Shown here piece after piece: positions 37,875 to 40,572 of a stretch of 64,000 nt of DNA. Both the position numbers and the translations under genes were made by a program. Each line of letters opens with the position of its first letter. The first letter of the stretch is position 1. The stretch spans positions 62,001 through 126,000 of the forward strand of contig LJCV01000044.1 in NCBI GenBank assembly GCA_001298575.1. The letters run 5' to 3'. Under the pieces are notes generated by a model. That model had not been told where the DNA came from, did not search any database, and saw only the letters and a list, made by a program, of their open reading frames with translations. The DNA comes from Actinobacteria bacterium OK074. GTDB taxonomy: Bacteria > Actinomycetota > Actinomycetes > Streptomycetales > Streptomycetaceae.

Positions 37875-38816
37875 TCAGACCGGCGGTGCTTCGAAGAGCA
37901 CGTCGGGGTCGTTGAACTGCTCCTTGGCGACCGACTCGCTCATCGGGTCGGCGGTGCCCCACTGGTCCTGGGTGACCGGGTCGTCCACGTCGTGCCGGCC
38001 CGGGTGCCACAGGTCCTCTTCGAGGACGGCGAGTTCGGTGGTGTACTCGACGGTGTTGCCGTGCGGGTCGTGGAAGTACGAGAAGGTGTTGTCGCCCGCG
38101 AGATGGCGCCCGGGGCCCCAGGTCAGCCGGGTCCCGGCCCGCAGCGCCCGCCCGGTGCCGCGCATGTACTCCTCGACGCCGCGCATCTCGAACGAGGCGT
38201 GGTGCAGGGAGACATGGGGTCCGCGGGCAATCGCGAAGGAGTGGTGCAGGGGGCTGCACCGCAGGAAGTACATGAGGTCGCCCATGTGTGCGGAGTACAG
38301 CGTGTCGGTGAGCCGGAAGCCGAGGTGGCGGACGTAGAAGTCCCGCAGGTGTTCGGGCTGTTGGGAGTTGACCACGACGTGCGAGAGCCGGACGGGGATC
38401 GCCTCGCGCTCCTCGATGTGGCGGTGCGTGCGGGTGGCGACCTCGGCGGAGACCTCCACGACCCGCCCGTCGGGGTCGAAGAAGCGGACCCCGTAACCGC
38501 CGCCCGGGGTGCCCAACAGCCGTGGTTCGCCAAGGAGTTGGACTCCGTCCCGGGCCAGCCGCAGCGCCAGTTCGTCCACGTCGCCGCGGCTTGCCGCACC
38601 GAAGGCGACCAGGTCCAGCCGCTTCCGCTCGTCCCTGCGGACGCGGACGACGTACTGTTCGGGGCTGCCCTCGGCCGCGAAGAACGCGATGCCGTCGTCG
38701 GCGGCGACCTCGGTCAGGCCCCAGGTGGAGCCGTAGAAGGCGCGCTGGGTGGTGAAGTCCGGTACGGCCAGGTCGACATGGCGCAGATGGGTGATGGGCT
38801 GGAAGGTGCTGCTCAC
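37875..38816 (-). CDS. VOC-family extradiol (2,3-dihydroxybiphenyl-type) ring-cleavage dioxygenase
   Basis: A 313-residue two-domain vicinal oxygen chelate protein. The first module (LRHVDLAVPDFTTQRAFYG) is structural; the second carries the iron ligands: His in VRLSHVVVNSQ, His in SPLHHSFAI, and Glu in GNTVEYTTEL. PHVSLHHASFEMRG and FSYFHDPHGN are typical of type I extradiol dioxygenases. It is likely to cleave a catechol-like ring next to the hydroxyls. The GTG start overlaps the stop of the upstream FAH gene (GTGA). Confidence 0.88.
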   Translation of the reverse strand: MSSTFQPITHLRHVDLAVPDFTTQRAFYGSTWGLTEVAADDGIAFFAAEGSPEQYVVRVRRDERKRLDLVAFGAASRGDVDELALRLARDGVQLLGEPRLLGTPGGGYGVRFFDPDGRVVEVSAEVATRTHRHIEEREAIPVRLSHVVVNSQQPEHLRDFYVRHLGFRLTDTLYSAHMGDLMYFLRCSPLHHSFAIARGPHVSLHHASFEMRGVEEYMRGTGRALRAGTRLTWGPGRHLAGDNTFSYFHDPHGNTVEYTTELAVLEEDLWHPGRHDVDDPVTQDQWGTADPMSESVAKEQFNDPDVLFEAPPV

Positions 38817-39778
38817 GTGGCGCTCCTGACGGTGTTGCGCTGGTGGCCCAGGCCGGTGATCTCCGCCTCGATGACGTCGCCGGGCTTCAGGAAGACGCCC
38901 CAGTGCGCGCCGTTGCCCGCCGGGGAGCCGGTGAGCAGCAGGTCGCCGGGGCGCAGTGTGGTGGTCGCGGAGGCGTAGGCGATGAGCCGGGGGATGTCGA
39001 AGATCATGTCCTTGGTGGACTCGTCCTGCCGGACGACGCCGTTGTGCCGCAGGGTGATGCGCAGGTCGCCCGGGTCCCCGGCGAAGGCGGCCGGGACCAG
39101 GAAGGGGCCGGTCGGCAGGAAGGTGTCGGCGTTCTTGGCGGTGAACCAGTCGGTGCCGATGGCCTTGAGGTCGGGGCGGTAGAGCCGGTCGCGGGTGGTG
39201 AGGTCGTTGCAGATCGTGTACGCGGCGACGTACTCCATGGCCTCGGCCTCGGGGATGTCGCGACCCGATCTGCCGATGACGAGGGCGAGTTCGAGTTCCC
39301 AGTCGTGCTGTTCGCCGAGCGCGGGCAGCACGACGTCGTCGTAGGGTCCGCAGACGGCGCGCGGCGAGCCGAGGAAGAGGTAGGGGACGCCGTGCCGGGC
39401 GCGGGCGTCCATCATCCGCTCGGCGTCGGCGCGGGCTTCCTCGGGGGTTGCCCCGTGCACGCTCTCCTTCTCTGCGGCGACCAGATCCACCACGTGCTTG
39501 CGGTAGTTGGCGCCGCTCTGCAGGATCTGGCCCGGTTCGACGGGCGCGTGGACGCGCAGGGCGGCGAGGTCGTGCCAGGTGCCGTCGGGGTCCTGGGCGA
39601 GGGTGTGCAGCCGGGGCAGCCAGCTGTCCCAGTCCGCCAACAGGGCGCGCAGGGACGGCACTTGGTCGGACAGGTCGCGCACCCGGGCTCCGGTGACCAG
39701 ACCGGGGAAGGCCGCGGCCCGCCCCGTGAAGGCACCGAGCGCGAACGGTCCTGCGTGCGAAGGGGGTTGGTCGGGCAC
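38813..39778 (-). CDS. Fumarylacetoacetate hydrolase-family enzyme (left arm)
   Basis: A 321-residue FAH-fold hydrolase or isomerase. It has QSGANYRKHVVDLV, the metal-binding acids in DWELELALVIGRSGRD, DLTTRDRLYRPDLKAIGTDW and LLTGSPAGNGA. Relatives hydrolyse acylpyruvates or isomerise/decarboxylate meta-cleavage products. First gene of the leftward operon FAH-dioxygenase-HisD-SDR. The GTG start at 39778 follows GAGGAG. A second FAH-family gene is in the right arm, so the two probably act on different ring-opened intermediates. Confidence 0.88.
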   Translation of the reverse strand: MPDQPPSHAGPFALGAFTGRAAAFPGLVTGARVRDLSDQVPSLRALLADWDSWLPRLHTLAQDPDGTWHDLAALRVHAPVEPGQILQSGANYRKHVVDLVAAEKESVHGATPEEARADAERMMDARARHGVPYLFLGSPRAVCGPYDDVVLPALGEQHDWELELALVIGRSGRDIPEAEAMEYVAAYTICNDLTTRDRLYRPDLKAIGTDWFTAKNADTFLPTGPFLVPAAFAGDPGDLRITLRHNGVVRQDESTKDMIFDIPRLIAYASATTTLRPGDLLLTGSPAGNGAHWGVFLKPGDVIEAEITGLGHQRNTVRSAT

Positions 39779-40248
39779 GGGCGGCTCTCCTCGGTGGACG
39801 ACGGCTAGGTCCTGTCGTCACATTCCCGTCGTTCGCCCGGAGGGCGGGCCCTGCGGCGGCGTGGGGGTCCCCCCGCTCGAGCGAAGCCGAGAGTGGGGGA
39901 GCGTGCTCTCGGCGTGCCGGGCCCGCGCCCTCGTACTGGACGTACTTGGGTGTGGGCCCGGTGCGGCGAGAGTGCGTGCATGGCGTCGCGGGGCAGACGG
40001 GAATGTGACGACAGGGCCTACCCCTGACGCTAGGCAGCCGCGCCCCGGGGCGGAAATGGTCGTTCGCGATGCCAGCCATCGGCCGCCTCGCCCTGCCCGC
40101 CGCCGACCCCGGCGATGTGCGGTTGCGCCGCGCGGCGCCTGCATCGTCGTACGGGATGGATGACGTGCCCCTTGGCGATGCCTGGATCCGTTGACCGGGT
40201 GTGGGCCGCAACCCCAGGCTCGGAGCACCCAACCCTTGAGGAGTGCAC
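39779..40248. other. Divergent 470-bp gap between the two catabolic arms
   Basis: The gap separates the leftward FAH gene (start 39778) from the rightward ABM gene (start 40249). It contains the MITE-like element at 39806-40020 and about 228 bp to its right, where the right-arm promoter should lie. No further gene is supported. Confidence 0.7.
39806..40020. mobile_element. MITE-like element with 25-bp terminal inverted repeats
   Basis: The ends at 39806-39830 and 39996-40020 are inverted copies with one mismatch in 25 (outer bases TAGGTCCTGTCGTCACATTC and complement). The 215-bp interior has no coding capacity and is itself an imperfect long palindrome (39901-39936 against 39942-39979). A Streptomyces-type intergenic hairpin (TCCCCCCGCTCGAGC to GAGAGTGGGGGA) lies near 39871-39901. 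Both ends finish in TA, which may be the duplicated target. This fits a non-autonomous transposable element moved by a full-length IS elsewhere. Confidence 0.78.
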
Positions 40249-40572
40249 GTGGTCGTCGAGCATGCCCGGCTGACCGTGACGGCCGGCCGGGAGGAGGAGT
40301 TCCGGGAGGTCTTCGGCAAGGCCCGTGAAGTCCTGGCCGCGGCCGACGGGTTCCGGTGGGCGCAGCTGTTGCGCTGCGAGGAGCAGCCGCGGGTCTTTCT
40401 GCTGCTGGTCGGCTGGGAGTCGGTCGCCGCGCACATGACCGGCTTCCGGGAGTCCGAACGGTTCGGCCGCTGGCGGGAGTTGGTCGGGCCGTTCTTCGCC
40501 GGGCCGCCGGACGTCGAGCACTTCCACGAACTCGACCCGCGCTGGCCGTCGGACCCGCCGCCGGTGGCGTGA
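40249..40572 (+). CDS. Antibiotic biosynthesis monooxygenase (ABM)-domain protein
   Basis: A 107-residue ferredoxin-like alpha/beta-barrel protein: VVEHARLTVTAGREEEFREV, VLAAADGFRWAQLLRCEEQP, FLLLVGWESVAAHMTGFRES. ABM proteins include cofactor-free quinone-forming monooxygenases and subunits that assist cyclisation. It is the first gene of the right arm. GAGGAG at 40238-40243 is well placed for GTG 40249; the GTG at 40243 overlaps that site. It may oxidise a phenolic intermediate or quench a reactive product. Confidence 0.82.
   Translation: MVVEHARLTVTAGREEEFREVFGKAREVLAAADGFRWAQLLRCEEQPRVFLLLVGWESVAAHMTGFRESERFGRWRELVGPFFAGPPDVEHFHELDPRWPSDPPPVA

Follow-up and report, generated by a model that had tools for sequence, protein, structure and literature searches.

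The window, that is, the whole 64,000-nucleotide stretch of DNA that was analysed, contains a FAA_hydrolase (FAH) gene and a divergent gene with an ABM domain, and the gap between them holds a MITE copy that lies in the FAH leader. The features of this region are listed below, each with its basis in brackets.

38813-39778, minus strand: FAH gene, whose leader carries the MITE (ORF list, Pfam)
39787-39792, minus strand: GAGGAG, putative ribosome-binding site of the FAH gene (sequence; found in most orthologues)
39805-40021, no strand: MITE copy with CTAG on its left flank and CTAC on its right (sequence, repeat search and comparison with other copies; orthologues empty)
39806-39830, plus strand: left terminal inverted repeat (repeat search; resembles IS5-family ends)
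39861-39901, plus strand: nested second repeat, which replaces about 6 bp of the MITE and whose end overlaps the first core bases (copy comparison; stand-alone copies elsewhere in the genome)
39899-39978, plus strand: 80-nt strand-specific hairpin core, model R1 (alignment, covariation and profile searches)
39996-40020, minus strand: right terminal inverted repeat (repeat search)
40027-40032, minus strand: conserved box TAGCGT of -10 type in front of the FAH gene, 5 nt beyond the MITE (orthologue comparison; putative promoter role)
40051-40056, minus strand: conserved TTTCCG, possible -35 with an 18-nt spacer (orthologue comparison; putative role)
40243-40572, plus strand: divergent ABM-domain gene (ORF list, Pfam)

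The repeat search of the window recovered inverted repeats at 39803-39830 and 39996-40023 (28 nt, 93% complementary). Within them, the 25-mers 39806-39830 and 39996-40020 differ by one base, a T opposite a G that makes a G-U pair on the plus strand, and both carry TA at their outer ends, in agreement with the original prediction of 25-bp terminal inverted repeats with a single mismatch. The predicted non-coding length of 215 bp also held, as the TA-to-TA span (39806-40020) and as the lack of any Pfam match at E≤0.1 for the three ORFs that cross, enter or adjoin the copy, and so did the 28 bp to the start codon of the left-hand gene (GTG of the FAH gene at 39776-39778). The copy is thus short and non-coding with terminal inverted repeats, as a MITE is. 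Folded as RNA, its plus strand reached -175.2 kcal/mol (z -13.4) and its minus strand -132.3 kcal/mol (z -8.8), with 0 of 200 shuffles folding as well in either case. Rfam returned a single match, which at E 0.64 and 20.1 bits fell short of the gathering score (83).

An internal Streptomyces-type hairpin had also been predicted. A GC-rich hairpin is indeed present at 39861-39901, but as a second, nested repeat that is missing from the six other MITE copies of about 180 bp in the genome. With ≤3 mismatches allowed, no other sequence of this kind was matched in the window. A similar insert is present in a partial MITE copy (C306, L005), one of seven relatives (L053, L135, L164, L017, L070, L146 and L005) in which similar repeats occur at the matching right-arm place. 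The sequences suggest that nested repeats may enter preferentially next to GCGTGC.

Copies of the element and its folded core

The full MITE query found 63 matching pieces in the source genome, which comprises 10.67 Mb in 318 contigs, and the 20-mer MITE end matched there 22 times at ≤3 mismatches against twice for the reversed pattern. Both ends were present at eight places, comprising the window copy, six copies of about 180 bp and one 63-bp miniature, so that the search for further copies in the genome yielded seven more with two ends, at unrelated loci. The miniature (G000:C13:92945-93007) has both ends without the core; very short end pairs like it were also seen in other genomes. Given these other copies, a chance origin of the palindrome in the window is excluded.

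Across the genus, the full query matched 88 of the 150 sampled genomes at E≤1e-10 (best E ≤3e-20 in 57 of them), a count that is too high for the MITE, since the nested repeat forms part of the query, reaches E 2e-18 on its own and may be all that some of these genomes match. Searched alone at E≤1e-6, the core (model R1) was present in 75 of the 150 genomes and gave 10 matches in the source genome. At the level of the class, 14 of 296 genomes had the core at E≤1e-4, 13 of them from the same genus and one, a weak match, from outside it. Phage records gave no match to the MITE query, and 21 of 72,556 plasmid records did, 20 of these from Streptomyces; the three matching plasmid stretches that were inspected bear no annotation. 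Three genomes were rich in the element: G219 with 47 forward and 44 reverse MITE ends, G499 with 15 scored cores of identical score, and G124 with 31 scored core matches, which are signs of a probably recent amplification. All copies were collected by similarity to the window copy, and neither the copies of one genome nor those of related genomes count as independent.

The core search gave 177 raw rows, including chance, nested and reversed matches, of which those were kept that measured exactly 80 nt and satisfied the limits set for the lower stem and the apical loop. The 84 distinct cores formed a gap-free alignment in which 97.7% of the cells of a 32-pair hairpin were paired. Sequence was conserved in the lower stem and in the apical GTAC-TGGAC-GTAC; the middle stem was variable in sequence, with its pairing kept. 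Doubly changed cells numbered 110; shuffling gave 22.1, with none of 500 shuffles reaching the observed count, and slid versions gave 22 to 38, while the number of pairs changed on both sides (10) was not in excess over the slid versions (7 to 11). Mispairs were G-T in 507 cases and A-C in 14, read on one strand, and every one of the 84 cores folded better on that same strand (mean -64.5 vs -45.6 kcal/mol). The core hairpin is therefore kept by compensatory change and is foldable on one strand only. The constraint acts on one strand, as it does for RNA or for a single DNA strand; RNA is the simplest reading, and a putative role of the core hairpin at the RNA level is the one favoured here.

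The alternative that the hairpin acts as single-stranded DNA, exposed during replication or transposition, is possible but rather unlikely. REP and IS200/IS605 hairpins act in this form (in the REP/RAYT system the hairpin has a conserved foot and is paired with a Y1 transposase), and a tolerance of G-T on one strand only would be explained by any single-strand constraint. This reading also agrees with the absence of a sense bias relative to genes. Among the 68 elements with both neighbours called, by gene calls of our own that were based on GC3 and not on annotation, 22 had the (-,-) and 10 the (+,+) arrangement relative to the hairpin strand (p = 0.05; 21 and 9 in an earlier count of 62 elements). 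The hairpin strand thus had no sense preference relative to neighbouring genes; the trend, if any, is the reverse, and a sense 3'-UTR role, at the 3' ends of mRNAs from adjacent genes, was set aside since gene orientation gives it no support. The ends and flanks of the element, however, fit a double-strand DDE transposase.

That the G-T excess reflects strand-biased mutation or founder pairs instead of selection for folding is improbable. Five pair columns are G-T in 64 to 82 of the 84 copies, and the copies of one genome are not independent; yet the nine middle-stem pairs (columns 23-32 with 50-59), which played no part in the filtering of rows, have 98 G-T against 4 A-C mispairs and many changes on both sides.

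Ends, flanks and candidate helper elements

CTAGG-like ends were found independently on each side in 96 of 125 hairpin copies, and the 29 copies without such ends on both sides were dropped (an earlier best-pair method had found ends in 98 of the 125). The length was 179-181 bp in 86 of the 96. The two ends of one element differed on average at 1.46 of 16 positions, compared to 5.48 of 16 between elements, and 90 of the 96 left ends had a sampled IS5 end that differed from them at no more than 4 of 18 bases; when positions 6-18 were shuffled, this was true of 1 of 96. The best-matching IS5 ends were of at least four types, namely GTCGTCAAA (45 elements), GTCTGACAA (29), GTCTTCAAA (5) and GTCCGTAAA or GTCCGGAAA (5), of which the GTCGTCA type (GTCGTCAAA class) is partly circular because its IS ends were in part retrieved by that end pattern; the other IS types were located by their transposase. 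Several end types occurred within one genome, as in G102 (L283 and L297 vs L296 vs L305). The ends also had an excess of G-T (59 vs 15 in 90 of the 96 copies), which rests largely on two columns.

CTAG was present on both sides in 50 of the 96 copies, and the window copy is flanked by CTAG and CTAC; a target duplication would span either 2 or 4 bp. TA/CTAG duplication is characteristic of the IS427-type grouping of the IS5 family. Six copies (L067, L074, L269, L293, L313 and L314) ended in CCAG...CTGG, inverted and not direct, and these fit neither a TA nor a CTAG duplication. Based on the same gene calls, 36 of 99 testable CTAG ends supplied the in-frame TAG stop of an adjacent gene (7 of 198 in the other frames), compared to 66 of 518 other CTAG sites of the same loci (odds ratio 3.9); the left and right sides of an element do not count as independent in these figures. 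The enrichment may owe as much to survival as to the choice of target, since a CTAG stop can be restored by the insertion. Seven of 70 elements possibly lay within one ORF.

The 18-mer CTAGGNYCTGTCGTCAMA occurred in 81 of 246 genus genomes, often paired at MITE distance. In G201, two inverted copies of it bound an 898-bp IS with DUF4096 and DDE_Tnp_1 domains (Pfam) and a match to NCBIfam IS5_3. Three full-length relatives of it (84-86% identical) had an end of this kind on a single side, which makes four full-length 898-bp IS with CTGTCGTCAAA on one or both ends; a decayed relative ended in GTCGTCACAT, the same as the MITE in the window. The search for an IS with the ends of the MITE, which had been proposed along with the original prediction, was thus successful in other genomes of the genus with this 898-bp IS5 type and fruitless in the source genome, where all nine exact matches to the 18-mer end were MITE copies and none was an IS. 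The 898-bp IS as query gave nothing there at E≤1e-5, the MITE copies included, an empty answer that is weak as it came without a positive control.

Among the IS5-type genes of the source genome, one had other ends (GTAACACGATC), and the rest had no such ends in a scan for TA at positions 2-3 with ≤2 mismatches in 14; its own IS5-type elements were consequently rejected as parent of the MITE. An IS701-type (DDE_5) parent was likewise rejected, as none of the loci of its four genome matches had such ends. The MITE shares its ends with an autonomous IS5 element of other genomes; because no IS with MITE ends was detected in the source genome, the helper may have been lost, lie elsewhere or be a different one.

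These shared ends would also be expected if the MITE were the internal-deletion remnant of an IS5 element, an origin for which we see very little likelihood. The MITE interior had no homology to the 898-bp IS, the one IS type tested, although the empty answer from the genome is weak here too. In addition, one core sits within several end types, and no IS interior with the core was seen.

Insertion into the FAH leader

The closest FAH orthologues were from Streptomyces, as were nearly all matching plasmid records, and the source genome is on this basis assigned to that genus. An ABM gene lay upstream in 34 of the 39 FAH-orthologue loci examined (80 fetched), and in all 34 the FAH/ABM gap was empty and measured 222-330 bp, against 464 bp here; six further inspected loci of relatives, including the best-matching G601, were also without the insert. 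This comparison of the orthologous gap had been suggested as a check for an empty site. The pattern named beforehand as contrary to a MITE (no other copies, the sequence conserved at this site) was not encountered, copies being present and the orthologous sites empty. A regulatory RNA or operator specific to the FAH/ABM control region, to which the position and strong structure could have pointed, is ruled out for practical purposes by the 34 of 34 gaps without the MITE and by the copies at unrelated loci. The identity of the element as a MITE was upheld by the seven further two-ended copies in the genome, the genus-wide core, the IS with matching ends and the empty orthologous gaps.

The motif C[CT]TAGCGT[CT] preceded the FAH start codon on the minus strand in 35 of 37 orthologue loci, with a close variant in the other two. 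From its conservation and its form, judged against the Streptomyces promoter consensus, TAGCGT is a putative -10 box of the FAH gene. TAGCGT, TTTCCG and GAGGAG are all intact at the MITE-bearing locus. The original prediction that the MITE may have brought in or displaced a promoter was not supported: the conserved promoter-like block lies outside the MITE, with TAGCGT intact 5 nt beyond it, so that the putative promoter was not displaced, and no sigma-70-type consensus was found in 39700-40300, a scan that is weak evidence for Streptomyces. A promoter inside the MITE was discarded, as no consensus match was found there. The change at the locus is an addition of about 215 nt between the promoter-like block and the ribosome-binding site; the boxes and GAGGAG being intact, the insertion therefore lies near the predicted transcription start and lengthens the FAH leader. 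Two exact copies of GGCATCGCNAA on the minus strand (40063-40073 and 40172-40182), the only exact ones in the window, fall within two well-conserved blocks of the orthologous FAH/ABM gap and are possible operator sites.

Overall, the element is very probably a copy of a genus-wide, non-autonomous MITE that is mobilised in trans by IS5-family transposases and landed in the FAH leader. These transposases would recognise the MITE ends and insert the element at a TA within CTAG-like sites, duplicating 2 or 4 bp. Here the MITE would have landed approximately at the predicted FAH transcription start, only in this lineage among those compared, sparing the conserved -10-like box and the ribosome-binding site and adding a leader of about 215 nt. 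The FAH transcript would contain the opposite, weaker-folding strand of the MITE, and the expected effect would hence be a longer structured leader with altered translation or stability, and no new promoter. The core strand itself most likely acts as RNA, as a long hairpin comparable to that of Correia/NEMIS, and might for example be a substrate of the Streptomyces RNase III or a barrier in transcripts. More tentatively, and with somewhat better odds against it than for it, the core may be a functional RNA or single-stranded DNA signal, a modular Streptomyces passenger that carries the ends of several IS5 lineages and is spread by whichever IS5 is active, the survivors being enriched where insertion at a CTAG stop restores the stop.

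Relation to known elements and significance

Correia/NEMIS of Neisseria are described as 100-200 bp long with 24-bp inverted ends, TA termini and long-hairpin transcripts, for which RNase III processing is reported (PMC2229807, PMC10969869). By these descriptions the Streptomyces MITE is similar in its short length, inverted ends, TA termini and long hairpin, but it belongs to another genus, its core covaries on one strand and its ends resemble several IS5 types. ERIC/IRU of enterobacteria, described in PMC2229807 as a MITE-like palindrome of about 127 bp with an orientation-dependent effect on mRNA, is likewise a palindromic MITE-type repeat; its end repeats, however, are 7 bp long. As in IS5-mobilised MITEs, the ends and CTAG-like flanks resemble IS5_3-type elements, whereas the interior was not seen in an IS and is common to elements with different ends.

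Six sequence strings from the MITE or its relatives were absent from the full texts searched, among which were few subscription papers. The titles and abstract openings of the literature on mobile repeats in Streptomyces contained nothing on this family, which at that level is no proof of absence. The main texts of PMC10969869 and PMC2229807 did not mention Streptomyces, PMC4681348 discussed REP elements for E. coli, and the sole occurrence of the relevant term in PMC6798073 was a reference on a fungal element.

Bacterial MITEs are often seen as IS ends around a filler, and here the filler is the best-kept part. What goes beyond an ordinary MITE is a covarying core that is foldable on one strand, and the same core within several IS5-like end types. 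Its copies occur in leaders and 3' ends of genes. A covarying folded strand found with several transposon-like end sets makes it possible to test whether a structured passenger moves from one mobilisation system to another, in a genus that is a major producer of antibiotics.
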